26,124 bases of DNA from a virus. The position numbers and the translations under genes are program-made. Each line of letters begins with the position of its first letter. Positions within the stretch are counted from its first letter, which is position 1. A model generated the notes under the pieces. That model made no database searches. It was not told where the DNA came from and was given only the letters and a program-made list of their open reading frames with translations. The stretch spans positions 1-26,124 of IMG/VR virus record IMGVR_UViG_3300033148_004030. One strand, 5' to 3'. Of the stretch, positions 1,032 through 23,173 are shown piece by piece.

Positions 1032-1576
1032 TTCGCCTTCCTCCAGTACGCAATCAGTGCATCATGTCCGGGGCCGTGATAATTCGGCAATCGCGTTACC
1101 TCGAATCCTAATTGCGCAAACTGCGCCTCATCCCAAACGCTGGCGTGCCTGTCAAGTTCGTTCGTCTTGTGTCGCCACTCGCTCGTATCGCCGTCGGGCG
1201 CGAAAACGGTAACGGCGTATCTCGCCACCCGCTTGGCATGTCCGAGAATCTTCCGCGCTCTTTCAGAAGTCACATGCTCAATTGAATCTACAAATGTCAC
1301 CCAATCAAATGCTCCGGTAAGCACATCGGCAATGCGAATCATGTCAAGCGCATAACATTCACGGAGATGCTTGCGCGCTTCGGCCGCCTTGTCTCTGTTG
1401 GCCTCAAACCCTGTTATCTCAAGCCCCAGATGATACCGGCTCGCCTTCAATCCGTCGCCACACCCCATGTCCAGCACCGTCTTTGCATCGGCTGGCCTGA
1501 ATGGTGCGAGTATCCTCCGCAGCTTGTCCCCGCGTGGATACTCAAATTCAGGCATACTGGGCTTAGGATTATTCAT
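1028..1576 (-). CDS. Second class I SAM-dependent methyltransferase, 182 aa
   Basis: A short methyltransferase unrelated in detail to its neighbour. Motif I is VLDMGCGDGLK (34-44), followed by the acidic strand-2 residue in GFEANRDKA (56-64), a motif II-like segment, and WVTFVDSIEHV (92-102) at the position where such enzymes carry their substrate-side loop. The C-terminal half has a conserved-looking His/Trp/Glu patch (SEWRHKTNELDRH). The start ATG lies inside the end of the glycosyltransferase gene (8-base overlap) behind a GGGAGGGGG ribosome-binding site; the stop overlaps the next methyltransferase start as ATGA. GC-rich composition matches the two genes downstream and differs from the rest of the window. 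Its position suggests modification of a glycan or a sugar nucleotide, but DNA or protein methylation cannot be excluded. Confidence 0.85.
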   Translation of the reverse strand: MNNPKPSMPEFEYPRGDKLRRILAPFRPADAKTVLDMGCGDGLKASRYHLGLEITGFEANRDKAAEARKHLRECYALDMIRIADVLTGAFDWVTFVDSIEHVTSERARKILGHAKRVARYAVTVFAPDGDTSEWRHKTNELDRHASVWDEAQFAQLGFEVTRLPNYHGPGHDALIAYWRKAK

Positions 1577-3401: not shown

Positions 3402-3411
3402 GTTCTCCACA

Positions 3412-3732
3412 TTAAATCTTAAACAAAATATCTATCAATGCTAAAAGTACTTTCTCAGTCGTTTCATTAATCCTTGCTATATTTTGTGCTTGATGTTCGT
3501 TAGCAGCATCCCATTCACTAAGTAGATTATCAACTTCTTCTGTAACCAACAATTTGTTCGAAACTCTTTCATAAGAATTTCTTACAACGAGAAGCAAGGT
3601 AGAAATTGCTCGCTTAGCCTCTTCTTTGCCCATGTTGTGCAATTCTGTAACCATTGCCCGCAAAACAGAGCGCAATTCTTCTGGAGCATTTTCAAGCGCT
3701 GATTCTATGCTTGTATGTTTGTTTTCTTCCAT
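3412..3732 (-). CDS. Small helical hypothetical protein, 106 aa
   Basis: Not recognised. The product is acidic, almost entirely predicted helix by eye, with heptad-like hydrophobic spacing (ALENAPEELRSVLRAMVTEL, then NKLLVTEEVDNLLSEW) and no cysteine, signal peptide or membrane segment. The ATG follows a GGAG site by 9 bases; the stop TAA of the lipoprotein gene upstream lies one base before the ATG. It sits between a lysis-type lipoprotein and the tandem glycosyltransferase. A small coiled-coil adaptor or regulator is possible, but no function is supported. Confidence 0.75.
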   Translation of the reverse strand: MEENKHTSIESALENAPEELRSVLRAMVTELHNMGKEEAKRAISTLLLVVRNSYERVSNKLLVTEEVDNLLSEWDAANEHQAQNIARINETTEKVLLALIDILFKI

Positions 3733-3733
3733 G

Positions 3734-3970
3734 TTACTTTACTCCATCTTTAGCGTTTTTAAATTTCTGCCACAATGCGGCATTAGCCGAAAGAGCTTTC
3801 ACCTGTTCTGCTTCGCTTAGCTTGCCTTGTTCTGCGCGAGTACTTACTTCTGCACTCCACGAGGTAGTTTTATCAAGCAACCGCGAATACGTGGGACTCA
3901 TATATACCGCACAACCATTCATGACAACAACAAGCAAGCAACTTGCCACAAGCCATTTGATTTTCTTCAT
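3734..3970 (-). CDS. Small lipoprotein, candidate outer-membrane spanin or lysis lipoprotein, 78 aa
   Basis: The N-terminus MKKIKWLVASCLLVVVMNGC is a textbook lipoprotein signal: two lysines, a hydrophobic run, and a lipobox with Cys20 as the lipidation site. The mature part is about 58 residues and mostly helical (SRLLDKTTSWSAEVSTRAEQ, then LSEAEQVKALSANAALWQKF). ATG 3970 is chosen over an upstream in-frame ATG at 4018 because it starts exactly at the signal peptide and has a GGAG site 9 bases before it. A short phage lipoprotein next to a two-helix membrane protein suggests the lysis module of a Gram-negative phage (o-spanin-like), but no matching inner-membrane spanin and no endolysin are seen here. 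It could instead be a superinfection-exclusion lipoprotein. Confidence 0.8.
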   Translation of the reverse strand: MKKIKWLVASCLLVVVMNGCAVYMSPTYSRLLDKTTSWSAEVSTRAEQGKLSEAEQVKALSANAALWQKFKNAKDGVK

Positions 3971-4014
3971 CAAATCATCTCCAAAATAAACTTGTTCAAC
4001 ACACGCTGACAATT

Positions 4015-4230
4015 TCACTTTTTGTGTTTCTCATCACAAATCTTGGCCTTTTCCTTCCCAATGTCGGCCATCCCCTGAGCGCCAATATAGGCCCCAACAA
4101 GACCTAAAATAGCATATGTTCCAGTTTGTATGTCAATCTGCTTAAAAATCATAGCGACAACAACGCCCACAACACTAAAAAACATGGGGATAAACTTTTT
4201 TGACGAAAACAAATCTCGTATAACTTTCAT
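4015..4230 (-). CDS. Holin-like small membrane protein, two predicted transmembrane helices, 71 aa
   Basis: The product has a short basic N-terminus, two hydrophobic helices (FIPMFFSVVGVVVAMIF, about 14-30, and AILGLVGAYIGAQGMADIG, about 41-59) separated by a short polar turn (KQIDIQTGTY), and a charged Lys/Glu tail. Length and topology match class II phage holins, which form lesions in the inner membrane to release lytic enzymes. A GTG at 4245, overlapping the upstream stop as GTGA, would add five residues; ATG 4230 with GAGAAG seven bases upstream is preferred, but both are possible. The lipoprotein gene follows after 44 bases. Assignment as holin rests on topology and neighbourhood, not on a diagnostic motif. 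Confidence 0.75.
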   Translation of the reverse strand: MKVIRDLFSSKKFIPMFFSVVGVVVAMIFKQIDIQTGTYAILGLVGAYIGAQGMADIGKEKAKICDEKHKK

Positions 4231-4241
4231 TGTTTTTCTTC

Positions 4242-5270
4242 TCACAAAGAAGCCAGAATCCTATCAATCATATGATCAGGATTGAACTTTAAACAATCAA
4301 CTCTACCATTCACACAGGTAAAGCGATTACATGGTTGACAGTCAACCTCCTTTCTCCTAATCACTTCAACATCCCCGGGAGTCAATACCAAATGAGAACC
4401 CATCGCTCCAAAATAAGCCAAGACTTTCTTTCTTAGAGCTATGCCTAAATGCAAGAACCCCGTATCTGGAGTAAACACCAAATTACATGAACTGATAATA
4501 GCAGCACATTCTCTAACGTTATAACAACCACAACAGTTCACACAATCTTGTGATTTCACACTTGCACAAATAGCTTTTCCCAACTTTCTCTTTTTATCAA
4601 AGAGAAAAACCTTAACGCCATTTTCAACCAATCCACGAATGATTTTGATAGCCAACATCGTCTTTATATGTTTAACTTCGCAAGATGATTCTAAAACAAA
4701 CGCAACCCATCTATTTGTGGTATTTTCACCAGTTTGTGATTTTGCCCACTCGACTTCTTCCTCTTTGACCTTGTAGAACAGTTGCTTATCTTTAACAAAG
4801 TTAGTAACCCCTGCCATTCGTGCTAACAAATCTATTTTATGAACATTGCTAATCAAGTTGTTACCAAATTCAACATTGTTGAGATTTGTTATGTAATCAT
4901 ACTTTCCTCTACGCACAAACGACAAAGAGTAGCCGTGATCGAAAACCCTATCTGCTGTATCATCTCCAAATAAAGTCGAGGAATATTTCTTATCCGTCGC
5001 AAAGTGTATTTCAATTCCTGGATACCGTTTCTTTATCAATTTCCTGATTGGATGACACATCAAAACATCACCAAGGCCACTTCCTCTAATAATCAATATC
5101 TTTTTACACTTATTTGTAAGGTTCTTATATCTAGCCTTTGGAGCATAGTTTCCACCAAGAACCAGCCCTAATGCTAATTCTTCAGGAACATCAACTATCG
5201 AATCTTTCACCGTATACGGTATTGATCTTATATACACCGTACCGTTAACAAAGCGTGCTCTTAATAACAT
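4242..5270 (-). CDS. Glycosyltransferase family 9 (heptosyltransferase-like) with shared N-terminal module, 342 aa
   Basis: Residues 1-45 repeat the module seen in the tandem GT2 protein (LLRARFVNGTVY then IPYTVKDSIVDVPEEL). From residue 56 on the protein is a GT-B fold GT9: KILIIRGSGLGDVLMCHP (57-74) is the N-terminal glycine-rich loop, and FTPDTGFLHLGIAL (266-279) followed by KKVLAYFG is the donor-site signature of ADP-heptose:LPS heptosyltransferases. A C-terminal cysteine cluster (311, 314, 319, 326) resembles the Cys set seen in many GT9 proteins. ATG 5270 is retained because the shared module begins there, although no ribosome-binding site precedes it; the inverted repeat at 5282-5387 ends only 11 bases before the start. 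A role in decorating virion or host surface glycans is inferred. Confidence 0.87.
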   Translation of the reverse strand: MLLRARFVNGTVYIRSIPYTVKDSIVDVPEELALGLVLGGNYAPKARYKNLTNKCKKILIIRGSGLGDVLMCHPIRKLIKKRYPGIEIHFATDKKYSSTLFGDDTADRVFDHGYSLSFVRRGKYDYITNLNNVEFGNNLISNVHKIDLLARMAGVTNFVKDKQLFYKVKEEEVEWAKSQTGENTTNRWVAFVLESSCEVKHIKTMLAIKIIRGLVENGVKVFLFDKKRKLGKAICASVKSQDCVNCCGCYNVRECAAIISSCNLVFTPDTGFLHLGIALRKKVLAYFGAMGSHLVLTPGDVEVIRRKEVDCQPCNRFTCVNGRVDCLKFNPDHMIDRILASL

Positions 5271-5405: not shown

Positions 5406-6407
5406 TTAGTTGCCAATGTTAATAATCTTTGCTTGGAAAATCTCAATGGTCATCATCAGAACTGTAAATTCCGCAATCAATGTCTTGTAGGCCGTGGTGG
5501 TAAGCGCAAGATCGATACTAGAAATTGGCATCATATCAACCATTGCAATCGCATTACCATCGTCTGTCACCGACTTATCATCAATGATATAAGCCGTTCT
5601 CTGGCTATATGTCTCCGTGATAAACCTGCTTGCGATAAGATCAAGAGTTCCCATCGGAGAGACCCAACGCGTGACTGCCACACCTGCCGGAATATCAGCA
5701 AGGGCACCGGCACCAGTTTGAGTCAAGCGATAATAAGAACCCAAAATCAAGTCACTCATCTTCTGGTTCTCATAAAGAGAAAAGATGATTGCTTGAGGCT
5801 TGCCACCAAGACTTACAACAGTTCTCATGGTAGTTGTCAAAGCTGAAAGAGTCAACGCAGCACCACCAAGATCCGTACTATTAGTGGTAATCAATTGATT
5901 CAAGCCATCAAACTGGAGACCCGCACCAGTAGTAGAATCGCCATTAATGATTGACCATTCTTCCATCAGTGCAACATTTATCATCTTCATCTTCGTCTGA
6001 AGTTTCTTGATATCTGTATACGATCTACCAGCCATCTGGTCAAAGAAGTTAACCTGAACCAGATCACCAAGACTAACGTATGGAGCACTCATATAACGAT
6101 ATGAAGCTTGTGTGGCCGTCGGCAATCCACCTCTAGCAAAAAACCCGTTAGAAGGAGACGTGCCAAGGAAAGTACCTTCGGTAGCACTTGTTCCAACAAG
6201 CTTATACCACGAATGAGCAGAACCATTACCTTCAATACGACTCAGCCTGTTCCGGATCGGAGTATCTACAGGAGCAGCTATTGCAAGCTCACTTTGCAGA
6301 TCCTCACGCACCAAGAGCAAGCCAGACACGTTCGTCGAACTAATAGCCTTTTGAACGTTGTTAATAGCTTGATCAACTTCAAAAGACGTTCCTTGAAAAT
6401 TTGGCAT
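5406..6407 (-). CDS. Major capsid protein, HK97 fold, 333 aa
   Basis: Recognised by size, position after the prohead protease-scaffold gene, and sequence character: an N-terminal helical arm, the phrase IAAPVDTPIRNRLSRI near residues 48-63 (the APxDTP N-arm pattern common in SU10-like and DUF5309-like capsid proteins), a Gly/Ser-rich E-loop region (GTSATEGTFLGTSPSNGFF), a spine-helix-like QTKMKMINVALMEEWSIING, and a beta-rich P-domain/A-domain C-terminal half ending in a hydrophobic strand. ATG 6407 is chosen because an AGAGGAAAAA ribosome-binding site lies 3 bases before it; an in-frame upstream ATG at 6476 would add 23 residues of atypical, Cys-containing sequence. No domain fused to the capsid core is seen. 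Roughly 415 copies per T=7 head are usual for the fold, but the T number here is unknown. Confidence 0.88.
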   Translation of the reverse strand: MPNFQGTSFEVDQAINNVQKAISSTNVSGLLLVREDLQSELAIAAPVDTPIRNRLSRIEGNGSAHSWYKLVGTSATEGTFLGTSPSNGFFARGGLPTATQASYRYMSAPYVSLGDLVQVNFFDQMAGRSYTDIKKLQTKMKMINVALMEEWSIINGDSTTGAGLQFDGLNQLITTNSTDLGGAALTLSALTTTMRTVVSLGGKPQAIIFSLYENQKMSDLILGSYYRLTQTGAGALADIPAGVAVTRWVSPMGTLDLIASRFITETYSQRTAYIIDDKSVTDDGNAIAMVDMMPISSIDLALTTTAYKTLIAEFTVLMMTIEIFQAKIINIGN

Positions 6408-6451
6408 CGCTTTTTCCTCTGAATTAGTTTCATGAACCATAACACAATTAC

Positions 6452-6505
6452 ATCTAGTTCTAGATATCCCGAACATATCTATTTTGTGTTTCCAGCAATT
6501 TCCAG
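6452..6505. promoter_or_regulatory. Palindromes and direct repeat in the capsid gene leader
   Basis: The 127-base gap before the capsid start holds three short symmetrical elements: ATCTAG-TT-CTAGAT (6452-6465), AGATAT-CCCGAAC-ATATCT (6462-6480, overlapping the first), and TTTCCAG repeated with a 10-base period (6489-6495 and 6499-6505). Together they could be an operator, a leader hairpin or a promoter region for strong capsid expression. No convincing -35/-10 pair was found, so the class is uncertain. Confidence 0.4.
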
Positions 6506-6512
6506 AAACAAT

Positions 6513-6542
6513 TCAGCTCGTTGCCTTTTACAACTTAGCTGA
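6513..6542 (-). terminator. Stem-loop over the protease stop codon, weak terminator or processing site
   Basis: On the minus strand TCAGCT-AA-GTTG, a 7-base loop, CAAC-G-AGCTGA gives a 6+4 bp interrupted stem that includes the stop codon of the protease gene. It is followed by ATTGTTTC, not a clean T-run, so termination would be partial at most. An RNA-processing or stabilising hairpin ahead of the capsid message is equally possible. Confidence 0.35.
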
Positions 6543-8370
6543 GCTTTTTCTCGAGTGATTCTTCCAAAACCTGATCACAGAACCGCTGTTGTTCAACAGT
6601 TAGGGGCTTGCCTGACTTTTTCAGGTCAATCGCCTTCTGCACCCGATTTTGCAATTCCATATCTGCCTTAGCCATTTTCATTTCTTCATCATTCTCACGC
6701 ATCACCTTTCTAACCTTTGGTCGTTCACCTTGGGCTCGAATCACGGCAAGAGCCTTTTCCAACTCGTCAGAAAGACGCTCAATCATTTCATCACGTTTCG
6801 CCAGTTCCATATCAATCACATCGCCACCCAAGCCCTTAGTCACACCACGAGACCCAACAGTAGTGTGAATCTGCTGTGAAAAGTCATAAATCTCGCCGCA
6901 TCCCGGACACTGAATAGCAGACTTGGCAATATCACCTCGCTTAACCGCCTTCATTGCTTCTCTTATCGTAGTCCCACAATAGGGACAGCTATCACCTTCC
7001 TGATCCTCACTGTCCAGCGGTTCATCTTCCGGAGGAGAAATGAGATGTGTTTTCCGCTCATCAGGCCCACCTTCTTCACCCAAATCTTGATAGCCCTGCT
7101 CGCCCTGCCAACCAGCACCACCTTCCATTTCTTCTGGATAAGCAGCAAAAACATTACCTTCTTCATCTTCATAAACTTCCATGCCTTCGGGGATATCATC
7201 GTATTCGCCCTCATATTCTTCATAGGGCTCATACATGTCGTCGTATTCCCCTTCATATTCTTCATCTGCGGGATAATATTCATAACCACCTTCTTGATCA
7301 TCTTGATATGATTGCGGCATATCGTCGTTGATCATCTTTCTTTTCGCATCTCGAAGATTTTCAGATTCAACCGGATCATCATGAGGCTGTGTCGCCTCAT
7401 ATTCTTCATCATCCGGACTCTCATAAGCTGCCTTCAACAAAGCTTCTGCTTCCGCAATTCGACGTTTACGCATATTCATGGTTTGATTAACCTCACTAAG
7501 CAAACGCATTTTTTTGATTTCAAAACAAAACGGACAAGAACTACTATCGTGACTTTTCCCTAAAATCTTTGCTGCTTTTTGATGAACTTTAAACTTATCT
7601 TTTTCCTTCAAAGAAGAATTGGGTAATATATTCAAAACAGAATATGCGTGAATCTTATCGGGCATACAATAATATCTCTGTTTATACAATCCATCTTTTG
7701 TTCTGCGAACTTTTACCAATCCAAAAACTCTGTCTGGTAATCGTGCAACTTCTTCGTCTGTTAAGATCTTGCTTTTAAACACAGGAACCTTACTCTCAGC
7801 TGACACCATTTCTCTGTAAAGAGGATCATTATAATTCCCATCTCTCTTTACAACTTCAAACAAACATTCTGGATGTGCCGGTCTATCAACCAAAGAAACT
7901 TCATTTAAGACATACTTCTTAACTTTAGAAACAACCTTACCCAACGCTGGCACAAATTCCTTAATCCTTTTCAACGCCTTTCCACCAATACTAAACCCTT
8001 TATAAACTCCGCTTTTAACCTTTTTCCAAGCATCATCATCAATGACCTTGGCTACAACCCTGACCAATTTATTTTTAGGATCTAGTTCAATGTCTTCTAT
8101 AATCCCACTTGCTTTTTTATCATCGTGCATTTCGCGAAGATTCATCCATTTCTTAAAGTCGTTCACAGCTTCAACAGTAGCGTCCCATTCTACGATTTCA
8201 TTTTGATTATCTAAAGTTGCCTTAGTCACTACTCCCACAACCAATCTCTTATCATCATCTATCTTCGTGATAGCTGCATAATTAACTAGAGAATCAAACG
8301 CTCCATGATTTTCAACATGAAAAACTTTCTCCATCTTCTTATTGTTTCTCTTAATCATACGTCTTAACAT
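6535..8370 (-). CDS. Prohead protease (XkdF/U35-like) fused to acidic, zinc-ribbon and scaffold-like coiled-coil regions, 611 aa
   Basis: Residues ~25-175 match the XkdF-type prohead protease: VVGVVTKATLDNQNEIV, NLREMH with His82, KGFSIGG with Ser127 and LNEVSLVDRPAHPE (155-167), giving the His/Ser pair expected for this peptidase clan. Residues ~205-272 carry the LPDxxF...PDxxHxxxxLxxL...A..LG module often found behind such proteases. A CPFC pair follows (279-282). Residues ~315-440 are strongly acidic with a tandem EEYEGEYDD repeat (370-378, 384-392). A zinc ribbon follows (CPYC 462-465, CPGC 488-491), and residues ~518-611 form a charged coiled coil like a scaffold. It probably cleaves head proteins and helps assemble the prohead. 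ATG 8370 has an AGGAGAG site. Protease-scaffold fusions are known; the zinc ribbon within one is unusual. Confidence 0.85.
   Translation of the reverse strand: MLRRMIKRNNKKMEKVFHVENHGAFDSLVNYAAITKIDDDKRLVVGVVTKATLDNQNEIVEWDATVEAVNDFKKWMNLREMHDDKKASGIIEDIELDPKNKLVRVVAKVIDDDAWKKVKSGVYKGFSIGGKALKRIKEFVPALGKVVSKVKKYVLNEVSLVDRPAHPECLFEVVKRDGNYNDPLYREMVSAESKVPVFKSKILTDEEVARLPDRVFGLVKVRRTKDGLYKQRYYCMPDKIHAYSVLNILPNSSLKEKDKFKVHQKAAKILGKSHDSSSCPFCFEIKKMRLLSEVNQTMNMRKRRIAEAEALLKAAYESPDDEEYEATQPHDDPVESENLRDAKRKMINDDMPQSYQDDQEGGYEYYPADEEYEGEYDDMYEPYEEYEGEYDDIPEGMEVYEDEEGNVFAAYPEEMEGGAGWQGEQGYQDLGEEGGPDERKTHLISPPEDEPLDSEDQEGDSCPYCGTTIREAMKAVKRGDIAKSAIQCPGCGEIYDFSQQIHTTVGSRGVTKGLGGDVIDMELAKRDEMIERLSDELEKALAVIRAQGERPKVRKVMRENDEEMKMAKADMELQNRVQKAIDLKKSGKPLTVEQQRFCDQVLEESLEKKLS
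7195..7263 (-). repeat. Tandem in-gene repeat encoding EEYEGEYDD
   Basis: Two copies, 14 codons apart, of a segment encoding EEYEGEYDD followed by M or I inside the acidic region of the protease-scaffold gene. The copies are nearly identical in DNA (cgtattc-ccttcatattcttc type on the plus strand), pointing to a local duplication. Confidence 0.65.
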
Positions 8371-8381: not shown

Positions 8382-9644
8382 CTATTCTTCCAATTTGTGT
8401 CGTTCTTCAATAAGTTGTGACCTTTTGTCCTCTAGCAATCTCTTAATGTCTTGTTCGTCATCATATTCATCCTCTGGGACATCTATCACATCCCTATACT
8501 TTCTTTCTGTGTCCAGCTTCAAATTATGATAGCCAAGTAGTTTATTTCGTTGTGCAACAATCTTTCTCCTCTTTTCTTCACTCAAGCCACTCAAGGCATC
8601 TGAATCTCGGACAATGCTGTCTATTTTATTTCTAACAACACGAGGAGAATCTCCCAACTTCGGCTTATTATAAGGTCTGACACGAAACTTATGATGACTA
8701 TACAAAAATGCAAGAAGTCCAGCAATGCCTCCAGCTATGAAAATGTCATTCAAAATTTTCTTCCATTTCCGCTTCACATAATCATAAGAATCACCAAACA
8801 ACCCTTTTCTTAAACCATTGATATAAATTCTTTTGGCAACGCTTCTCCCATTCTTCCGTCTCATTCGCCTATAACCTAGTATCCCACCGCCAACAATGCC
8901 CCCGCCAGCCAAGCCCCCACCGGCAAATTGCAATCGAGGAATATCTATGTTACGAAAATCCTCAGCGGCTTGAGCTATGCCTCTAACTCTGCCCATCCTA
9001 TAAGCACTCAATTGGCTTGGCAAATCGGTGGGCTTAACAGCAATCATCTCTCTCCTAATATCGCCAAACTTAATTCTTGGCGAACCAAGTTGCTCATTCA
9101 ACAAACGCGCCTGATACCATTTCAGCTTTTTACCACGAGCCCTTGTTCTCAAAGCTCTTTTAACTCCAAACCAAAGTCTATTTCTTTGAGGTGTAGCATG
9201 AACAGCATAGCTTCCATAGGGCAATTTCTTTGGCAATCCCTTTGGATTCATAACTAAGCGAAAGATCTGCCTGGCTTGTTTTCTTGGAAGATTATAACTA
9301 CCAGTCTTATAATATGTCCCAAACACCCTCTTATGTGTAGGACTTCCAGTCAAAACAGCCATCAAAGATGTCGGAGCCAACCATCCTCTTGACCTAACTC
9401 GCCTCTTCTCCCCAGGGATCACTGTTCCATGTACTCCCAACCACATTCTCCTCAATTCTTTGCGAGTTGGAGTAGCAACAATTTTAGGAACATATCTAAC
9501 GTTACGTTTAGCTCTAGCGTATATCCTTCTGCGTGCCAATGCTGATGGAGACCAAGGCTTGATCCACTGTCTGTAAGCTTCCTTAGCTGCATCTCTAAGA
9601 AATCCCTTTTGTATCATCAGATTGGTTATCAAATCATTTGACAT
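8382..9644 (-). CDS. Arg/Lys-rich protein with two Gly-rich hydrophobic segments, 420 aa
   Basis: Not matched to a named family. The first ~235 residues are very basic (SALARRRIYARAKRNVRYV and similar runs). Two hydrophobic segments follow: FAGGGLAGGGIVGGGILGYRR (about 240-260), extraordinarily glycine-rich, and IFIAGGIAGLLAFLYSHH (about 301-318), a good transmembrane candidate. The last ~90 residues switch to mixed-charge helix ending in ERHKLEE. It belongs to a set of similar basic proteins around the portal gene. The ATG at 9644 is preceded by a GGGTGA site; an in-frame GTG at 9653 is less likely. The stop lies 11 bases before the protease start. A virion-internal or membrane-inserting role is inferred from charge, segments and position. 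Confidence 0.75.
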   Translation of the reverse strand: MSNDLITNLMIQKGFLRDAAKEAYRQWIKPWSPSALARRRIYARAKRNVRYVPKIVATPTRKELRRMWLGVHGTVIPGEKRRVRSRGWLAPTSLMAVLTGSPTHKRVFGTYYKTGSYNLPRKQARQIFRLVMNPKGLPKKLPYGSYAVHATPQRNRLWFGVKRALRTRARGKKLKWYQARLLNEQLGSPRIKFGDIRREMIAVKPTDLPSQLSAYRMGRVRGIAQAAEDFRNIDIPRLQFAGGGLAGGGIVGGGILGYRRMRRKNGRSVAKRIYINGLRKGLFGDSYDYVKRKWKKILNDIFIAGGIAGLLAFLYSHHKFRVRPYNKPKLGDSPRVVRNKIDSIVRDSDALSGLSEEKRRKIVAQRNKLLGYHNLKLDTERKYRDVIDVPEDEYDDEQDIKRLLEDKRSQLIEERHKLEE

Positions 9645-9685
9645 TTGGTTCACCCGCTAATTATACAAGGCAACTCTGTAGATAA

Positions 9686-10333: not shown

Positions 10334-12748
10334 TTACAAAACTCGCTTACCTGTAGATGTAACAACAATGTTATCTGAATCTGTATCATCTCTGTTCAAG
10401 TCAGCAACCTCACTTCTCTTGACTCTGGCTCTTGATAAATACAAGCCTGCTCCATCACTATATGCTGCTTTTCTATCAACAACATAAACACCATGATAAC
10501 CTTTATCAAACAATTGCCTGATCACCTTCTTTTTATTCTTGACTATTCCGGGCACTTTCTTTAAAAAGGGAACATTGGGAACTGTCTTCGAAAGCAGCTT
10601 CATTCTAGTAGTATACGGCAAAGACCTGACATCGTTTCCCTCAGCAGACAAGATATCATGAACAAGAAAAACCGGCTTTCCAGCCTTACTCTGGATAATT
10701 CTAGAATGATGCGAATCCGAGCTGAGAACAGCGTTGCTAATCATAGGAGAATGAACAAAAGCTTCTACTTCTAAAACAGTTCCAGGAGCACCTAAGTGCA
10801 AATCTCTGATATAAGGAAAATTATCAGTCTTCTCAGCATAGCCTTTTCTTTTCTTATTTGACGATTCTGTTCTTGTAAGTATTCTGTTCTCATGGCTCCC
10901 AATATACAGCAACACTTTGGGGCCACCAATTCTTGGCTTAATGGCATACCTTGTACTTGTCAACATTCTTTTCTTAGGCTTCATTCTATAATCTTTCATC
11001 CTGTACTGCCCGCTGAATTCTTTCTTTCTCACACGCTGGACCACCCATTTTCCTTTAAACTTCTTCATGCCATAAGAACCCTTGCTAGGTCCAGTCAATA
11101 TGTCAAAGATAATCGAATTGTCGTCAAAGCGTTTAATTTCAATCGGTCCCGCTTCTCTGACCTGAACCAAACCCTTCCCGTAACCTGATTTGATCTCACC
11201 AGAAAAATTCATATAAGCAGCAGAATGAGTTGGTTGAGTGATAGCCAATCTCTTTTGTCCGGCTTTAGGCAATCCCTTTGGAATCACCCAAGATAGAGCT
11301 TTTTTTCCAACCTGTATGCGAAAATCATAATGTCTTCCGGCTCTCTCAGCATTGTGTTCCTGGATAGCATAGCGCGTCAGGACGGGTCTGAGCGGTTTTA
11401 AAGCACCTACCCTTAGCTTAGGGGCGGGCAATGCTTTTGGGCGCTCTGAGGACAAAAGCTGACTCACATGCGGCCTATGCCTGCGTACCCCCGCCTTTGG
11501 TATTGGTACACGCTTGCCGCTTTTTGTTGTGACCCAACGTTCAATTTCCTCTGGCCTTAAGTATCTCTTTTCAATTTCGCGATACATTTTTTCATCTCCA
11601 GCTTCTAATTCAGCGTGCGCAATTCTATTAAATTCTGATTCGTCACCAAGAACGCGAAAGCTAACTTCTTCTCCCTTATAAGCAAACCCACTCTGAGGAA
11701 AGCCATCAAGTAGAACAACCGCCTTCAACTGATTAGGACTTCGTTTGTTCGAACTAAATTCTCCAAAAGTAATGACTTGTCTCACTGCTCTGAAAGGAGT
11801 TCCATTCTGTTGCAACACACCCTTCAAAGCATCTTCAAACTTAGAAGCCAACAAAGCACGCTGATTGGTCGTTTGCAAGTCTACAGGAACCAAATCTGTC
11901 AATTCTCTTTTTTCTCCATTCATCTCCACAGTTGCCTTCTTGACTTCTTTCGAAGAAATCAACTTATAGTCTGTATCAATGACCTCCTGGAAATATCTAC
12001 TTCTTTCTGGAAGCAAGTTCTCAAAAAACTGTGGATCAATGACATACATTGCAAATGACTCCGCAAAACATTCCTTTGGCGAAATAAGTTCTTGCTGATC
12101 AATGAATTTAATACCATTCGGCACCAAATATTCTGACTGAACAACTTCACCAGTTATTGTAGAAATTTGTGGCCTCCAAAATCCCACAATTGGATCTGGA
12201 CTTTTGACAAACGTAGGAATCACTCCCTTAAACTTACTCTTTTCATCGTCTGAAAGCCAGTGATGCCAAAGCATATGACCATATTCATGTACACACGTTT
12301 TGTGAAATTCAGGAATCAGCTTATTTCCAAATCTAACAACTCCAAATCGTCTATAAAAGTCGGGAACAAATCGCATTGAATTCCTGACTCTGTTATAAGA
12401 AGCATGGCCCTGTCCTTCTTTAAAATCAAAAGAAGTTACAAGCTCATGATTCAAGCGATAACGTACATAAACTCTAGCAATCATTTTCAAGATTTCATGA
12501 TTAATTCTGCCAGTTGACTTTCTTGTAATGTCATCTAGAGCTGTGATATAACGTTCCAAAGCATCCTTTTCATTGTTACCATCAACCCAAACATAATTTT
12601 CTCCATCAACCACACGCCACATCTTTGTGATCTTTGGTATAACAGCATCAACATTGGGATAAGATTGAACACTAGTTATGTATTTCCAATAGTCTGGATT
12701 GAAACGAGTGATAGCTTTCTCAACGGTAATTGCGTTTTTCAATTCCAT
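10334..12748 (-). CDS. Zincin-like peptidase fused to LigD-type 3'-phosphoesterase and a degenerate ligase-like domain, 804 aa
   Basis: Residues ~85-270: metallopeptidase-like domain with HEYGH (154-158) and a downstream ECFAESFAMY (226-235) giving a plausible Glu zinc ligand. Residues ~459-575: resembles the DNA ligase D 3'-phosphoesterase domain, with RYAIQEHNAERAGRHYDFR, W487-PKG, KRLAI and THSAAYMNFSGEI. His465, Asp475, Arg477 and His508 are in the places of the LigD catalytic His/Asp/Arg/His, though two extra residues lie between the first His and Asp. Residues ~600-780 follow the ATP-dependent ligase motif order in eroded form: RIGG for KxDG, LEVE for LDGE, VHDIL, GYHGVYVV, then RARVK. 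PE before ligase is also the order in Pseudomonas LigD. ATG 12748 has an AAGG site; a TTG at 12796 overlaps the portal gene and is rejected. Directly follows portal, so probably a virion protein. Confidence 0.82.
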   Translation of the reverse strand: MELKNAITVEKAITRFNPDYWKYITSVQSYPNVDAVIPKITKMWRVVDGENYVWVDGNNEKDALERYITALDDITRKSTGRINHEILKMIARVYVRYRLNHELVTSFDFKEGQGHASYNRVRNSMRFVPDFYRRFGVVRFGNKLIPEFHKTCVHEYGHMLWHHWLSDDEKSKFKGVIPTFVKSPDPIVGFWRPQISTITGEVVQSEYLVPNGIKFIDQQELISPKECFAESFAMYVIDPQFFENLLPERSRYFQEVIDTDYKLISSKEVKKATVEMNGEKRELTDLVPVDLQTTNQRALLASKFEDALKGVLQQNGTPFRAVRQVITFGEFSSNKRSPNQLKAVVLLDGFPQSGFAYKGEEVSFRVLGDESEFNRIAHAELEAGDEKMYREIEKRYLRPEEIERWVTTKSGKRVPIPKAGVRRHRPHVSQLLSSERPKALPAPKLRVGALKPLRPVLTRYAIQEHNAERAGRHYDFRIQVGKKALSWVIPKGLPKAGQKRLAITQPTHSAAYMNFSGEIKSGYGKGLVQVREAGPIEIKRFDDNSIIFDILTGPSKGSYGMKKFKGKWVVQRVRKKEFSGQYRMKDYRMKPKKRMLTSTRYAIKPRIGGPKVLLYIGSHENRILTRTESSNKKRKGYAEKTDNFPYIRDLHLGAPGTVLEVEAFVHSPMISNAVLSSDSHHSRIIQSKAGKPVFLVHDILSAEGNDVRSLPYTTRMKLLSKTVPNVPFLKKVPGIVKNKKKVIRQLFDKGYHGVYVVDRKAAYSDGAGLYLSRARVKRSEVADLNRDDTDSDNIVVTSTGKRVL

Positions 12749-12752: not shown

Positions 12753-14942
12753 TCATCCCTTAGTGTATGGTCTGATGATTCTAATTGTTCGTCCAATGAC
12801 CGGACCAGTCCTAGGATTACGACTAAAGATGTTCGCCGCTCTACTCACAAGACCTCTTCCACCAGAAGAAATAGCCGCTACCAGCAAAGCAGTAGGAATC
12901 GCCATATATGCCGCATTTCTTCCTAACTGATAGCGTGCATTGTGCATGATTCTTCTATCTGTCCCAGTTTGATCGGCAATTCCAGTAACAATGGCATCAG
13001 TCAAAACTTCCTTAGAAACATTCAACTGTCTTCGAAGTCGGTCAAGTTTTTCCTGTTCTTTATTTTTTAGAGGCTCAAACCTGATTTGACTAGGAAGTTG
13101 ACCATAATACTTCTGAATAAGGTTATCAAATTCATCATTCTTGTGATCAATGGTGATAATGGTATCTTCACCATTCTTTTTCAAATTATCTACAACCCCA
13201 TTCATAACGCGCCGCAATTCGGCAGGACCTCCAGTTGTCTGAACGTTCATACGTTGCGAAACTGAATTTTGTGCTTGCAAAGCACGAGGAGATTGTTGCT
13301 GTTGTAAACCATTAGCACCACTCTCTGTCTCGCCAGTTTCTTCCCCTTCAACCAACATCTTTTCTGCTATGTCATCAGCCATTTCAATGGGAACCTGACC
13401 ATTAGGAGTAGTGGTCCAAATGACATCTCCACCTTCTTTAGGACGCATCTTAAGTTTCTTTCTTCTATCGTTGATTGAAATAACACCAGCACTCAAATCT
13501 TGGATATCAACCATTGCTTCTTGAGCCTTATCTAAAGGAGTGTCGGTGACATATTTGAACTGAACATCATCATACCCATAAGCTCTCTGAATGATTTCTT
13601 CATTCACATGACTTTGTATAAGTTCGAGCAAAGCCTTCAAGCCACGATCTTGCGAAATGCGATATTGAACTTCTGAAGTCGTCCTATGCAAGTCCATCGT
13701 GAAACCAATATCTTGTGGAGAAATCTGAAAGCAAGCAGATTTTATCGAAAGTGACCATTTCAGGTACTCAAACATCTGCATATCTTTAGAGCTATAAGGC
13801 CGCAAGGGAATATAGCTAGCACCCTTAGAACCACTGATAAACATCAACTTATGAAGACCACCTTTTCTTTGAATCTCTTGATCCCAATATCTAGCGAATG
13901 TTCTTCGTTGATTCGGTGTGACGCTTTCCCCTAAATCCATAATGCCAGGAGGTACATTGCTATATTTGAAAAATTCCATGTTATAGTTGTCTACAAACAA
14001 CGTTGTTGTGATGATGAAAGCAGCGATTTCACATGGAGAAAAACCATAACAATCATGCTGAGGATTAGCCATAATATAAATCATTTCATCATCTGTAAAT
14101 TCAGCCATTTCCTTTCCATCTTTCATCCAGCAATAAGCTTTGTCTGGAGGTTCTGGAACAGAACCATCCTCAGCACGCATCACCACAATTTCGTTTCCTG
14201 GACGGACATACAACTCTGCAACAGGGTTAGACTCATCACGACTTTTGTTTTTAATGATAACGCCAGCGTCATAAAGTAGAATATCATCAAGAACACGAGG
14301 AATGAATGAATTCCATGTAGGACTCTCTCTACATGGTCTCTTGAAGATTTTAACTTTCTTAGCTTTTTCGTCTGCTTCAAATCTAATGTAACTGATGGCA
14401 TTTTCAAAGACCCATCTGATTTGAGCTTTTTTATCAGCACGGGTGTTCATCGAATTGTTCATAATCCCAACAATTCGATCATGAATCCCCGCAGCCAATT
14501 TCGAGTCTATGTTTGAAGGAATCTTATCATCACCAAATCCTTTGATGCCCCAGTTATTAATTGAAGATTTGACATTGTTATGCCACTGATCTAGAGAAGC
14601 TTCAATTTCATCTGTATTCCTGGTGATAGACCATTGAGCCCTAGAAATTTGATCTCTCCTAGCCTTTCTGATCGCCCAAGTGATTGGATCACTATCACCA
14701 AGCATTTTTATCTGTCTCAAAGAGATTGGTCTCCCCGCCCTTTTCTTTTTGCGAGAACTGACACTGCCTGATTCAATCATCGCAGCATCAGCCGCATAAT
14801 CACCTCTTCGACGATAAGGAACTTCTAACCGTATGTCACCATTGTTGATAGATTTAACCAAAGACTGAACTGGCATCGAAATTTTGTCAATCAATTCCAT
14901 AGAACTGTCAACCAGCCGTTTAGCCAGATCATTTAATATCAT
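12753..14942 (-). CDS. Portal protein with an extended hydrophobic C-terminus, 729 aa
   Basis: Recognised as a portal (head-tail connector dodecamer) from the order of conserved segments: SDPITWAIRKARRDQISRAQW near 85-105, a wing/stem region with DDILLYDAGVII (about 219-230), MIYIMANPQHDCYGFSPCEIA (about 295-315), the LHRTTSEVQYRISQDRG clip region, and a ISINDRRKKLKM segment typical of phage portals. It lies upstream of the protease and capsid genes as in many HK97-type phages. The C-terminus is unusual: after a Gln-rich linker it ends with a Gly/Ala hydrophobic stretch (YMAIPTALLVAAISS, about 679-693) and a basic tail, like the neighbouring basic proteins. ATG 14942 is two bases after the upstream stop and has a GAGGTGG site. 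Confidence 0.88.
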   Translation of the reverse strand: MILNDLAKRLVDSSMELIDKISMPVQSLVKSINNGDIRLEVPYRRRGDYAADAAMIESGSVSSRKKKRAGRPISLRQIKMLGDSDPITWAIRKARRDQISRAQWSITRNTDEIEASLDQWHNNVKSSINNWGIKGFGDDKIPSNIDSKLAAGIHDRIVGIMNNSMNTRADKKAQIRWVFENAISYIRFEADEKAKKVKIFKRPCRESPTWNSFIPRVLDDILLYDAGVIIKNKSRDESNPVAELYVRPGNEIVVMRAEDGSVPEPPDKAYCWMKDGKEMAEFTDDEMIYIMANPQHDCYGFSPCEIAAFIITTTLFVDNYNMEFFKYSNVPPGIMDLGESVTPNQRRTFARYWDQEIQRKGGLHKLMFISGSKGASYIPLRPYSSKDMQMFEYLKWSLSIKSACFQISPQDIGFTMDLHRTTSEVQYRISQDRGLKALLELIQSHVNEEIIQRAYGYDDVQFKYVTDTPLDKAQEAMVDIQDLSAGVISINDRRKKLKMRPKEGGDVIWTTTPNGQVPIEMADDIAEKMLVEGEETGETESGANGLQQQQSPRALQAQNSVSQRMNVQTTGGPAELRRVMNGVVDNLKKNGEDTIITIDHKNDEFDNLIQKYYGQLPSQIRFEPLKNKEQEKLDRLRRQLNVSKEVLTDAIVTGIADQTGTDRRIMHNARYQLGRNAAYMAIPTALLVAAISSGGRGLVSRAANIFSRNPRTGPVIGRTIRIIRPYTKG

Positions 14943-14943: not shown

Positions 14944-17025
14944 TCACCACCTCGCTCTCTGCGTTCGTTTTGTTCTTTTCTTTCCCTTTCTTCCCCCCTG
15001 CAAATCTTGGCGCACTAAAGCCAGGCCAGAGACCGGAGTAGATGTGAACTGTTTTAACAGATATCCTTTGCTTTGAGCTTTTCCAACAAGATCTCGAAGA
15101 AGAGTTAAATTAGAAATTGTTCCTTCACTCTCTTCTAATTCTGGGGTTCTTTTAACTCTCACCTCACCCCCTTTTTTTCTGGGATTTTTATGCTTACCCG
15201 CCTGACTTGGCAACGGAACTCTAGGTGGCGGGATAGCTCCATATATTCCTTCCCTTTTCTTTCTATCTACATAAAGAGTAGTGGCAATTCTATCTAAGAG
15301 CTTTTTATCAGAGATTCCTGTCCTCCGTTGAACGAGTCGCAAAGCTTCTGGAGCTCTGCCATGTTCAACTAGTCTAGCAACCTGCTGTCTGGTTCTTTTT
15401 GCCTCTCTACCATACCGCAAATTACCAAGCGCAACTTTATATCTCATCTCTGATTCAATTTGCTTACTTCCTCGCTCAGTCGCCTGTTTCTCTCTTAGAA
15501 ACTTAACTCTTTCGCCAACTTCTCTTTGAAACTCGGGAGCATTTTCTCTCGTCACTCCCCCTCTAGCTCTGAATGTTTCAGCAGTCGCTTTCTTTTTAGC
15601 TGCAATTGATTCTTTCAGTGCTCGTTGACGTGCAACACCTTCGAGTCTAGAAACGCGCTTAACATCTTCGTTGAAATCTCTAGCATGTTTAGAACGATTT
15701 TTAGCAGCTTGAGGAACTGTCTCTGGGACATTTGCAAAGCTCACAGCTACATCAGCCAAAGCACGTTGTGAGATAGGATGAGTTCCCAACATTTTAGACG
15801 TATATTTATAAGCCAAATCATAAGCACTGTCTTTATCATATCCTTTTGATCGAGCAGATTGGAAAGCTTCCCGAAACAACTTCCTGGTTTCCACTGTCAT
15901 CTCAACCAACGCTGCTCGCTCTCTTTCAGACTTAGCTCTCAGCCAACCTTTTCCATACTTGTGCTCAGCTTCTCTCTCAATGTCTCTTTTAACACGATAC
16001 AATTCCATCAAGACGCTATCAGTATCCGGAGTATCATATCGTGGATCACCAGCAGCTCTTCCCTCTTCAATTTCATTAATAGTGCTCTGTGTTCTGGCAA
16101 GACGCATATAGATATTGCCAGTGCTCTTGTCGCGATTATAATCAAGCATGGCCTTCATCTTGTCAGGATTGATTCTGACCTCAATGGGATAGAAAGGAAC
16201 TTTTCTACCCAACAACTCAGTCACAAACTTCGCTGTATGAGCAGCAGCAGTTATCTTCATAGAATCACCTATTTCTCCCGCCAATTTAGAAGAAAAAGAT
16301 GGTTCTGGAACATTGAAAACTCCATGACGTCGTAGAGTTTCTATTGTTTTTCTCTTCCTTTCGGCTCTCTTAGCTCTTAGCATTGCTGCTTTAGCACGCA
16401 TTTCAGGATCCATGCGAGAAAGATTAACAACATCTCGAGCCTTACGAGCCAAGCGTTCATACAATCCTTCTGCTCCAGCCTGCACACCAGCCAAGCCAGT
16501 TCTGACCGCAACGCTTGTTCCACCATATTTCAAACGTTCTAAAAGATCAGAAGGAATCTTCTTGACTCCTCTTCCATAAACTTCTCCACTCACTGGATTC
16601 ACATGCAGAGATCGTTTGGTTCTGCGAATTCTCCTCTTCCTACCTCTCGTTCCAATGCTAGTTCGTAGTTTAGGAGCTCCCGTAGACAAGACATACTTCT
16701 TCTCAGAAGCTGGCTGTTTAGGCAAGGTTCTAGCTACAAACTGATGCAGACTTGTTTTAGAAGGTTCTGTTGACACAATCCTTTTCACAGATCCCTTAGG
16801 CTTGGGAATCTTCCTACCTTTTCTCTTATCATACGGAATTCTTTTCCCAGTCTTTGTTGTATAAAATCCTAAGTGTTCTTTAGGAATATATCCTGGATCT
16901 CCTGGACCAATACTAGACTTCGACACAGAATCTTCTCCAGTGTCTTTATCTATCAGACATCTAGCAAACGCTTGCAACAAATTTCCATTGTCCTTAGCTA
17001 TTGTTGACATGGCCTCTTCGTCCAT
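14944..17025 (-). CDS. Large Arg/Lys-rich helical protein upstream of portal, 693 aa
   Basis: No named family recognised. The first ~70 residues are acidic or neutral, then a TTKTGKRIPYDKRKGRK segment (about 57-73) resembling one in the 804-aa peptidase/phosphoesterase protein (TTKSGKRVPIPK). After that the chain is extremely basic and mostly helical, with long charged runs (AMLRAKRAERKRKTIETLRR; ERERAALVEMTVETRKLF) and only one cysteine. Near the C-terminus EESEGT (631-636) is shared with the 955-aa protein; the last 20 residues are nearly all Arg/Lys/Gln. Unlike its relatives, it has little continuous hydrophobic sequence. ATG 17025 is used, but a TTG at 17031 and ATG 17004 are alternatives because no clear ribosome-binding site decides. 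Candidate DNA-binding internal head protein. Confidence 0.72.
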   Translation of the reverse strand: MDEEAMSTIAKDNGNLLQAFARCLIDKDTGEDSVSKSSIGPGDPGYIPKEHLGFYTTKTGKRIPYDKRKGRKIPKPKGSVKRIVSTEPSKTSLHQFVARTLPKQPASEKKYVLSTGAPKLRTSIGTRGRKRRIRRTKRSLHVNPVSGEVYGRGVKKIPSDLLERLKYGGTSVAVRTGLAGVQAGAEGLYERLARKARDVVNLSRMDPEMRAKAAMLRAKRAERKRKTIETLRRHGVFNVPEPSFSSKLAGEIGDSMKITAAAHTAKFVTELLGRKVPFYPIEVRINPDKMKAMLDYNRDKSTGNIYMRLARTQSTINEIEEGRAAGDPRYDTPDTDSVLMELYRVKRDIEREAEHKYGKGWLRAKSERERAALVEMTVETRKLFREAFQSARSKGYDKDSAYDLAYKYTSKMLGTHPISQRALADVAVSFANVPETVPQAAKNRSKHARDFNEDVKRVSRLEGVARQRALKESIAAKKKATAETFRARGGVTRENAPEFQREVGERVKFLREKQATERGSKQIESEMRYKVALGNLRYGREAKRTRQQVARLVEHGRAPEALRLVQRRTGISDKKLLDRIATTLYVDRKKREGIYGAIPPPRVPLPSQAGKHKNPRKKGGEVRVKRTPELEESEGTISNLTLLRDLVGKAQSKGYLLKQFTSTPVSGLALVRQDLQGGRKGKKRTKRTQRARW

Positions 17026-17038
17026 TTTCAATTAAAAA

Positions 17039-18766
17039 TCAATGAATGATTTGTTTCTTAGCGTTCACCTTAGCCAATTTATCAATAAAAGATCCGAGAT
17101 TGTTCATCTTGCGCAAACTCATCTCCAGATCTTCCGCACGCAGTTGAGCAAGAATTTGCCTAGCTGTTTCTATCTTCTCTCTATTTGTTGTTTTGGCTCC
17201 CTGCTTCAAAAGATTCTTAGACCTAGAACTCTTCAACGCTTTAAACTTCACCGGCTTAGTTCGTGTTGGTTGAATAAAATATGGACTGAAAGTCCTAGTT
17301 TCTTTGTAACGTGTGGGCTTAGTCATACGTCCCAAGAGAACCCCACCTGCTCCTATTCCAACATTAGTAAGGAGCCTTTTGCGCTTCCTAGCAAGATCAA
17401 CAGCTTCCCGAGACAACCTTCCCAAATGACGCAGTCCAGCGTTATCTTCAAATCCTTCATTAGATTCGCGACGTCCACGAGCACTGAGCTGTGCAAATTT
17501 CTTTTTGCCATATTTCTTTCTACCAATCCATGCAGCAAGAGCTCCAGGATCGCTCACTCCACGATGAGCTAGTTTTCCCTTCAATGCTTTGAAACGACCA
17601 CCACTTCCGAGACGTGCCACTTTTTGAACCTTGCCAACTGGAGGACAATAGCCCAATCCTCTTCCAGTCCTGGGACCAAGACCTTCCGGACCAGTTCTAT
17701 CCAGTTTCCTTCTGGCACGAAAACGACCGCCACTTCCATACTCAATTCTTCGAGCATTTCTACGACGTCCACGACGCGCTAGAAATCCTGCTCCAAGCAC
17801 GCCAGCTCCGGCTCCTAATCCTACTGCTAAAGGAGCATATTCGGGAAGATCCCTGATTCTAGTCAACGTTCCTCCTAGAACCCTTCCATAATTCCGAACT
17901 CTCCTGTTGCTTCCACTCCCTGGAAATCTCCACACTCCGCGAGAATCAGCAATTCTCTGACCTACTCTTCGGTCCCTAGTAGCAGCCGCTATTCTACTAG
18001 TCAGCTTTCTGGCTCTATCAATCAGTCCAGCGTTATCCTCATATCCTCTACCTTCTTGACATCCTTCTTGCATTTCACGTTCTCCAAATAATCTACCAAA
18101 TTTTTCAGAAGCTCCACTGGTTCCAGCAGATTTGCTACGATGCAAGAATCTCCGAATCATGCTATTCCGAAGATTCTGATACGTCTTATCTGCCGGATCT
18201 ATATTCAAAGACCGCAGACTTCTATCAACATGCTCTTCGGCATTGATTTTGGCATCTAGGTGTTCTAGACGCTTATCTTCCCATCGCTTATGAGATTGTG
18301 CATATCTCCCACGACGAGCTCTGCGGACCTTTCTCAAATCCCCACTAGATATAGCACGATACATCTCTCGGTCTGGTTCTCCAAAAGTTCTTCTCTTAAG
18401 ACTTTTGCTTCCATAATAAGCAGCAAGACCACCAGCTCCGTACAAGGCAACTTTTCCAGCCTTTCGACCAGATTTGTATCCACTCACAAACTTTTTTCTA
18501 CGTCTATTAACAGCTCGAGAAATCTGCTTTGGTCGAACAACTTTCTGTGCTTTCAAAGAAAATCGCTTGATTGTTCTAGGGATCGTTCTCTGCATTTGAC
18601 CAGTTTTCGCAGCTAAAGCTGACCTAGATGTTCTCAGGGTATTTCTTCCAGCCTTAGCTCCACTAATTACGACTCTTCTTAAAGGTTTTCCGCCAATTTT
18701 GCTGGCAATTCTTCCTAACGTTCCAGGCCAACCTTTCCGAACATATCCATTTTTAATGAAATACAT
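17039..18766 (-). CDS. Arg/Gly-rich protein with three hydrophobic segments and duplicated motifs, 575 aa
   Basis: Three Gly/Ala-rich hydrophobic segments lie in a very basic chain: VALYGAGGLAAYYGSKSLKRR (106-126), LAVGLGAGAGVLGAGFLARR (313-332) and VGIGAGGVLLG (469-479). The sequence EDNAGL occurs twice (243-248 and 440-445), each time after an EG-containing acidic patch (CQEGRGYEDNAGL; SNEGFEDNAGL), with identical 15-base DNA cores at 18023-18037 and 17432-17446. A GSGGRF(R/K)A motif also occurs twice (344-351, 387-394), the second leading into DPGALAAWIGRKKYGKKKFA, a short module I recall from phage structural proteins. ATG 18766 has a GGAG site 9 bases upstream. It fits the set of basic, virion-associated proteins around the portal. 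No enzymatic motif is seen. Confidence 0.75.
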   Translation of the reverse strand: MYFIKNGYVRKGWPGTLGRIASKIGGKPLRRVVISGAKAGRNTLRTSRSALAAKTGQMQRTIPRTIKRFSLKAQKVVRPKQISRAVNRRRKKFVSGYKSGRKAGKVALYGAGGLAAYYGSKSLKRRTFGEPDREMYRAISSGDLRKVRRARRGRYAQSHKRWEDKRLEHLDAKINAEEHVDRSLRSLNIDPADKTYQNLRNSMIRRFLHRSKSAGTSGASEKFGRLFGEREMQEGCQEGRGYEDNAGLIDRARKLTSRIAAATRDRRVGQRIADSRGVWRFPGSGSNRRVRNYGRVLGGTLTRIRDLPEYAPLAVGLGAGAGVLGAGFLARRGRRRNARRIEYGSGGRFRARRKLDRTGPEGLGPRTGRGLGYCPPVGKVQKVARLGSGGRFKALKGKLAHRGVSDPGALAAWIGRKKYGKKKFAQLSARGRRESNEGFEDNAGLRHLGRLSREAVDLARKRKRLLTNVGIGAGGVLLGRMTKPTRYKETRTFSPYFIQPTRTKPVKFKALKSSRSKNLLKQGAKTTNREKIETARQILAQLRAEDLEMSLRKMNNLGSFIDKLAKVNAKKQIIH

Positions 18767-18805
18767 CTATAATTCTCCCTTATACGTTCACAAATTTCTC
18801 ATTGC

Positions 18806-18827
18806 GAATTACCCAGTGAATTACCCA
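18806..18827 (-). repeat. Tandem 12-base repeat carrying two in-frame stop codons
   Basis: GAATTACCCA occurs at 18806-18815 and again at 18818-18827. On the minus strand each copy contains TAA in the frame of the DHH phosphoesterase gene, so the gene ends and then ends again 12 bases later. A local duplication at the 3' end. Confidence 0.55.
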
Positions 18828-19738
18828 CTTATCGGGTTTGAACTAGATTCGATAAGAAATTCTTTAGAGAAGAAACCAGCCGAGCCAAGATGTCCTCCAC
18901 CTCCGTGCTTCTTAGCAATTTCAGAAACATCTATTTGTTGAGAAGTTTCGGGATTCTTTTCAGAACGTAGTTGATAAGTGTAGGTTGTCCCATCAAATGA
19001 AAAGCCAACTCCAAAGGGATAATCCTTAAGCTCTTCTCCAAACAGTTCTGAAGAAAAGACAGGATACCCAACATTCAAAGCCAGACAACGTTGTCCATCT
19101 AATCTCGCTTCAAACATATTGGCTTCTCGAATCTGAGCTCTTTGCTTCTCAATAAATTTCAAACACACTTCCCCATTGCTAATAATTTGCTGAACCTTAG
19201 ATGCTTCCGGTTTTCCACCTGCTAAGAGAATCTTCCAGATATGAGACTTCGGGTCTTGATCCTCAATCATCATGCCAGCAGTGAAAGCCTTGGTTTCGAG
19301 ATATTCCCACTTCCACACATCTCTATCACCAATCCATTTCAAAGCCCTTGGCATAGGACGAACACAATGATATAAATAATCCCAAGTCAGTTCACAAGCA
19401 GATACCCCACTTCTCACTAGACTCTGAATGTTGAAAAGATCTTTAACTAGACCCTCTGGAATTTTTTCCTCTAACTCGTTCATCATGTCCACAGCAGTTT
19501 TATGATGATCGATAATAATGACGTTCTTAGTTATAGCATACAGCTTTAACATCCCATCAAGCTTCAAAGAGTAGTCAACCAACCAAACACTCTCATTCTT
19601 GCTAATCATGTCATAGGGAAAAGAATCCTTATAGTTCACCTCAACAAACAACAGCTTCTCGTTAATGTGCTCAAACGCCCAGTTCACAACGGCCGCCGCA
19701 GCTCTTCCATCCAAATCATTATGATGAAAACAAATCAT
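18821..19738 (-). CDS. DHH-family phosphoesterase (NrnB/COG2404-like), 305 aa
   Basis: The motifs of DHH/DHHA1 phosphoesterases are present in order: FHHNDLDGRAAAA (4-16) with the metal-binding His/Asp residues, VDYS (54-57), IIDHHKTA (75-82) containing the DHH signature, WIGDRDVW, and C-terminal GGGGHLGSAG (279-288), the DHHA1 substrate-binding loop. These enzymes use two metal ions, usually manganese, to cleave short oligonucleotides or nucleotide monoesters and cyclic (di)nucleotides. The start MICFHHND at 19738 has a strong GAGGAG site 9 bases upstream; an earlier ATG at 19771, overlapping the previous stop as ATGA, would add eleven unusual residues. It sits between two large basic virion-type proteins. 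It might clear nucleotide fragments or a cyclic-nucleotide defence signal; neither can be decided here. Confidence 0.88.
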   Translation of the reverse strand: MICFHHNDLDGRAAAAVVNWAFEHINEKLLFVEVNYKDSFPYDMISKNESVWLVDYSLKLDGMLKLYAITKNVIIIDHHKTAVDMMNELEEKIPEGLVKDLFNIQSLVRSGVSACELTWDYLYHCVRPMPRALKWIGDRDVWKWEYLETKAFTAGMMIEDQDPKSHIWKILLAGGKPEASKVQQIISNGEVCLKFIEKQRAQIREANMFEARLDGQRCLALNVGYPVFSSELFGEELKDYPFGVGFSFDGTTYTYQLRSEKNPETSQQIDVSEIAKKHGGGGHLGSAGFFSKEFLIESSSNPISG

Positions 19739-19767
19739 CTCAACAAACTCCTCTTTCTTAAAAAGAC

Positions 19768-22635: not shown

Positions 22636-22652
22636 GTATTTAGATTCCAAGA

Positions 22653-22844: not shown

Positions 22845-22859
22845 TTCATCATTCCTTTC

Positions 22860-23141: not shown

Positions 23142-23173
23142 AAATTATACTCCACGACAAGAAGCCACAAAAC

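Follow-up and report, generated by a model that had tools for sequence, protein, structure and literature searches.

A zincin-like domain joined to a LigD-type 3′-phosphoesterase and a ligase remnant in a protein encoded directly after a phage portal gene

Results

Gene order around the portal gene

The window, that is, the whole stretch of DNA analysed here, comes from IMG/VR, where it forms a virus record 26,124 bases long that is probably a fragment. On its minus strand, positions 10334..12748 encode an 804-amino-acid protein composed of a zincin-like domain, a middle domain, a LigD-type 3′-phosphoesterase (PE) and an inactive ligase domain, an order shared by homologues in three other records (L009, L141 and L062). 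The gene directly upstream in transcription encodes the portal protein (12753-14942, minus strand; Phage_portal PF04860, E=2.2e-23; phrog_12, E=1.3e-36). Downstream, again in order of transcription, lie two small genes, a gene for a basic protein, the prohead (head maturation) protease gene (6535..8370, minus strand; PF14550, E=1.4e-7; phrog_9427), the gene of an SU10-type major capsid protein (5406..6476, minus strand; PF17236, E=1.1e-13) and a glycosyltransferase 9 gene. The 804-residue protein is thus encoded between the portal and the prohead protease, in agreement with a preliminary description of this DNA that had located it directly after the portal in a virion gene cluster.

The open reading frame is genuine under translation table 11 and runs from an ATG at 12748 to 10334. 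This ATG, which lies four bases past the portal stop codon, is most likely the start codon because the homologues begin at the same place, and residues are numbered from it throughout. The computed isoelectric point of the protein is 9.8.

Eight other proteins of the window (14944-25466 and 8382-9653, minus strand) are very basic, with isoelectric points of 10.4-11.9 and a lysine plus arginine content of 21-25%, and several of them contain one glycine-rich hydrophobic stretch each. Family searches gave no clear function for these eight and no similarity was detectable among them; possibly they are internal virion DNA-binding proteins. A DHH phosphoesterase gene (18821-19771; phrog_4771, E=6e-54) lies within this cluster and overlaps its neighbour by 4 bases. 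Glycosyltransferase- and methyltransferase-like genes are found beside the head genes (window positions 1-5270), and a similar glycosyltransferase adjoins the capsid gene of L141.

A zincin-like domain, a middle domain and a linker

Residues 44-263 (11960..12619, minus strand) make up a zincin-like metallopeptidase domain containing a HEYGH zinc-binding motif (residues 154-158; 12275..12289, minus strand) and an ECFAESF third-ligand motif (residues 226-232; 12053..12073, minus strand). Both motifs had been noted in the preliminary description; in the forms HExGH and FAE[ST]F they are retained in all four members (the window protein and its three independent homologues), and in a model predicted from the four sequences both fall on helices. 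This model resembled the Pro-Pro endopeptidase PPEP-1 (probability 0.98, TM 0.50, E=0.018, mean pLDDT 61.7) and, with moderate scores, other ATLF-type zincins, and a zincin profile search of the PDB ranked members of the PPEP family first (E ~0.01). In the homologues, matches to Peptidase_Mx in Pfam stayed below threshold. The domain shares with ATLF-type zincins the HExxH motif and a predicted second helix bearing a glutamate, and may share their fold, whereas the sequence similarity to them is marginal. The motifs and the probability of the PPEP-1 match fit the earlier assignment to the zincins, while its TM score, its E-value and the sub-threshold Pfam matches are weak; with a model of low to moderate confidence, the zincin identity appears weaker than that of the PE.

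The middle α/β domain (residues 264-395; 11564..11959, minus strand) was modelled with a pLDDT mostly of 80-93. Its Foldseek matches to Pol-beta-type nucleotidyltransferases were weak (E of 0.3 or worse) and indicate at most a possible, weak fold resemblance; a working Pol-beta nucleotidyltransferase is unsupported, the fold matches being weak and the catalytic signature absent. The linker that follows, EIERWVTTKSGKRVPIPK (residues 401-418; 11495..11548, minus strand), resembles the W[VI]T..GKR[VI]P motif found in head-slot proteins of related phages.

The 3′-phosphoesterase domain retains its active site

The PE occupies residues 456-573 (11030..11383, minus strand). It matches Pfam LigD_N (PF13298, E=1.2e-15), exceeding the curated cut-off, and the solved archaeal PE of PDB entry 3p4h (E=7e-16). 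In the AlphaFold model the domain has a pLDDT of ~95 and forms the β-barrel of 3p4h (TM 0.91, rmsd 1.3 Å). The preliminary description had proposed a LigD-type PE with H465, D475, R477 and H508 as catalytic residues and had staked the proposal on a structural match to the barrel; the residues are correctly identified and the predicted model shows the barrel. All eight LigD PE active-site positions are present (Q463, H465, H473, D475, R477, S486, H508 and Y512). In the Pseudomonas LigD PE, His42, His48 and Asp50 are manganese ligands, Arg52, His84 and Tyr88 are phosphate ligands, and Gln40 and Ser61 have supporting roles (PMC8656161).

A further residue of the Pseudomonas enzyme, Glu82, is required for 3′-phosphatase activity and dispensable for removal of a 3′-ribonucleoside (PMC8656161), and is not defining for the LigD PE superfamily as a whole. 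Proline takes the equivalent position in the window protein, as it does in the majority of viral PE-ligases. Because of this replacement, the predicted activity of the PE may be that of a 3′-ribonuclease/phosphodiesterase rather than a 3′-phosphatase. The window PE also contains a two-residue insertion (A-G) ahead of the second histidine. Thus, while the barrel and the full set of active-site residues align the domain with the LigD PE superfamily (PF13298; 3p4h, 3n9b, 5dmp), it departs from that superfamily in the A-G insertion, in the proline at the Glu82 position, in being fused to a zincin and in occurring without Ku or a polymerase.

The ligase domain is inactive

The NCBIfam LigD model PRK09632 covers not only the PE but also the region downstream of it (E=2.1e-24). 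Here, residues 580-760 (10469..11011, minus strand) constitute a LigD-type ligase nucleotidyltransferase domain whose predicted fold resembles that of archaeal ATP-dependent DNA ligases. Motif I reads R606-I-G-G in place of K-x-D-G, with R606 replacing the lysine and G608 the aspartate, and these losses rule out an active ligase. The earlier statement that the locus is without an active ligase is accordingly right as to activity, but it had missed the ligase remnant. The motif I lysine and aspartate are gone from all four members of the lineage (R/G, V/R, E/K and E/G), whereas in other viral PE-ligases the lysine is kept in 12 of 12 and the aspartate in 11 of 12. The window protein ends before the OB domain; L009 has one (Pfam OB_2, E=8e-11), as apparently, from the alignment, does L141. 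The succession of PE and ligase nucleotidyltransferase is that of bacterial and archaeal LigD, as represented by PRK09632. Unlike those enzymes, however, the window protein has lost the ligase lysine, is without the OB domain, is preceded by a zincin and a middle domain where they have a polymerase, and is encoded in a phage head operon.

Relatives occupy the same slot after the portal

Searches of IMG/VR with single-sequence patterns from the whole protein gave no match; relatives were reached through portal, PE signature and zincin profile searches. These yielded three further independent relatives, each encoded directly after a portal gene and all sharing 28-32% overall identity with the window protein. 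In L009 the portal is followed by a 970-residue zincin-PE-pseudo-ligase-OB protein. In L141 the gene order agrees with that of the window: after the portal come a 976-residue protein, a protease, an SU10-like capsid protein and a glycosyltransferase that resembles the one in the window. In L062 (L062-L065 are identical copies) the slot holds a 1031-residue protein that has kept the zincin motifs and lost the active-site residues of both PE and ligase.

Among the members with an intact PE site, the PE is the most alike of the enzymatic domains (40% identity between window and L009, 69% between L009 and L141), and a tree of PE domains groups window, L009 and L141 (99/93). The deeper forks of this tree are weak and therefore do not place the source of the PE module. 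Three of the four lineages (window, L009 and L141) retain the PE catalytic residues, and none retains those of the ligase. From these sequences the zincin is consequently taken as the constant part of the group, and the loss of both the PE and ligase active sites in L062 indicates that some members do without catalysis by these domains.

The portal profile search gave 76 viral loci; across genome contigs, the portal search found no match. Among these more distant relatives, the slot after the portal in L066 (1556-4342) holds a head protein with MuF, inorganic pyrophosphatase (InPase) and SAM-lyase domains. The slot proteins of L067 and L068 contain an HExxH motif and the linker W[VI]T..GKR[VI]P, and their C-terminus was judged by eye to be MuF-like. 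The window protein has this type of linker (EIERWVTTKSGKRVPIPK) too, which links it to the head-located effector slot of MuF and polyvalent proteins. Pfam did not detect the MuF domain itself (PF04233) in the proteins of window, L009 and L062, and membership of the window protein in the MuF family was rejected for that reason.

A probable head-located protein with a LigD module as cargo

In polyvalent proteins the zincin is the commonest domain, and phage-encoded polyvalent proteins are likely packaged in the capsid (Iyer 2017, PMC5512222). The window protein is like them in being multi-domain, in having the zincin as hub domain and in its head gene context: zincin, PE and pseudo-ligase are joined in one polypeptide, with portal, protease and capsid genes adjacent. 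The likeness extends to the InPase, 2H and SAM-lyase domains found among its relatives. It differs from the polyvalent proteins of that study in that no LigD PE or ligase is reported for them (the word ‘LigD’ is absent from the text). MuF head proteins and MuF toxins (PMC5576092) occupy the same slot after the portal and share metallopeptidase cargo, but the MuF domain that they possess was not detected in the window protein.

The protein is best read, from its sequence and surroundings, as a head-located polyvalent protein that is probably ejected, both because four independent contigs share this post-portal slot and because the occupants of the slot in more distantly related phages are MuF/effector fusions. 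Polyvalent proteins with zincins being known (PMC5512222), what is new is the LigD module as cargo; neither a LigD PE or PE-ligase in polyvalent proteins nor the virus-type PE family was found in the open-access literature searched, and a prior description elsewhere is possible. The preliminary description had held that an injected protein able both to cut a host protein and to trim DNA 3′ ends would be new. This novelty is narrower than claimed for the injected zincin fusion and broader for the PE, which belongs to a family present in many uncultured viruses.

The explanation that we place first, and hold to be nearly as probable as its contrary, is that of a polyvalent head protein coupled to the portal, in which the zincin serves processing and the LigD-derived part engages DNA ends so that the PE can trim their 3′ termini. 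According to this model, the protein would probably sit in the capsid near the portal and exit with the DNA. The zincin would most likely process the protein itself or a partner, either after entry or while the particle matures. A captured viral PE-ligase module would make up the C-terminal part, and its dead ligase domain could bind DNA at a nick or an end, leave it unsealed and present 3′ ends to the PE. The PE would then clear the phage genome of 3′ blocks, be they terminal ribonucleotides or others, with host or phage enzymes finishing the repair. End trimming is, judging from the homologues, not the function common to the slot proteins, because L062 has kept slot and zincin and lost the PE residues.

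The same loss of both LigD active sites in L062 makes a structural role the strongest rival, and a serious one. Here, the LigD-derived part would be a DNA-binding module holding a DNA end near the portal within the head, the zincin would be the only enzyme needed (for head maturation) and the intact PE would be a remnant. A ligase that is dead in every member, a gene lying between portal and prohead protease, the basic nature of the protein (pI 9.8) and the retention of the zincin motifs in L062-L065, in the same slot, are all consistent with this. However, a remnant would not be expected to keep all eight PE residues in window, L009 and L141 when the window protein is only ~30% identical to the others, and we consider the structural role possible but doubtful.

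An alternative that we regard as unlikely is an injected anti-host effector, whose zincin would cut a host protein and whose PE would act on host nucleic acid or on the product of a defence system instead of the phage genome. One domain of the slot protein of L066 is a SAM-lyase, and domains of this kind are known to counter restriction. Moreover, polyvalent-protein zincins may target host proteins (PMC5512222), and putative MuF toxins have a nuclease domain in more than half of cases and a metallopeptidase domain in 20% (PMC5576092). Against this, the fusion of the PE with a DNA ligase domain and the nature of its viral relatives, which are PE-ligases or polymerase-PE proteins, argue for DNA-end chemistry. 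Least probable of all is a conventional repair protein that is produced in infected cells and merely located in the head operon: L003 does have a standalone PE beside non-structural genes, but with a dead ligase, and with a post-portal position that four independent contigs conserve at ~30% identity, the window protein does not fit this reading well.

PE proteins in other uncultured viruses

The window PE shares its two-residue insertion with the PEs of L003 and L005. A DNA pattern for this insertion matched 52 stretches in uncultured viral contigs, some of which are copies of one virus, versus 4 in a species-level collection of bacterial and archaeal genomes; two of these 4, from Acetobacteraceae, resemble ordinary LigD, one of them clearly. 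In a Rickettsiales metagenome-assembled genome (L137), an 818-residue open frame reaching the end of the locus has a virus-type PE at its C-terminus; L137 may be a binned phage.

The architectures of the viral PE proteins include a standalone PE, PE-ligases with intact motifs (L020 and L036, for example), and giants of 1619 and 3231 residues. L005 encodes a polyvalent protein with 2H, PE, ligase and InPase domains, and the PE-ligase gene of L036 is one gene away from a tail sheath gene (phrog_279, E=1e-15). LigD polymerase and PE share one frame in 14 viral records. LigD-type primase-polymerase-PE proteins of ~490-530 residues were seen in L010, L012, L015, L018, L019, L022, L023, L029, L030, L037, L047, L050, L054 and others, all records without Ku. 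When the remaining PE-bearing viral records were searched for portals, few showed a clear one.

Ku was absent from all 55 virus records searched, the window included; many of these records, the window probably among them, are fragments. Ku-based end joining was rejected on this count. L006, L007 and L008 were left out of the Ku search: the PE-ligase of L006 adjoins a Ku-like gene (by eye) and seems to be a cellular LigD segment, L008 was set aside as a cellular-type PE, and L007, a PE match, was set aside from the viral set. The LigD polymerase (PF21686) had no match in the records of window, L009, L141 or L062. The remark in the preliminary description that the window lacks a polymerase and Ku thus holds.

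Catalogued phages gave no match to the whole protein or to the PE, the latter by tblastn in 0 of 50,697 phage records. The same kind of PE query matched 495 plasmid records, LigD where annotated, and this indicates that the search works.

A broader proposal, which we offer as speculation more apt to be wrong than right, is that a LigD-derived kit for healing DNA ends, free of Ku, is carried by many uncultured phages, and that one part of it has, in the window lineage, been built into a capsid protein. Delivered with the genome, this part would clean 3′ ends damaged or blocked in packaging, storage or by host defence at the start of infection. If so, DNA 3′-end healing would join the activities that phage heads may contain, and the viral PE proteins, should their substrate be phage DNA as it enters, would represent an end-repair system working without Ku.

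Six of the PE-ligases (L020, L024, L036, L041, L042 and L053) open with a common short peptide, FA[PV]G[IL][PQ]..., ahead of the PE.
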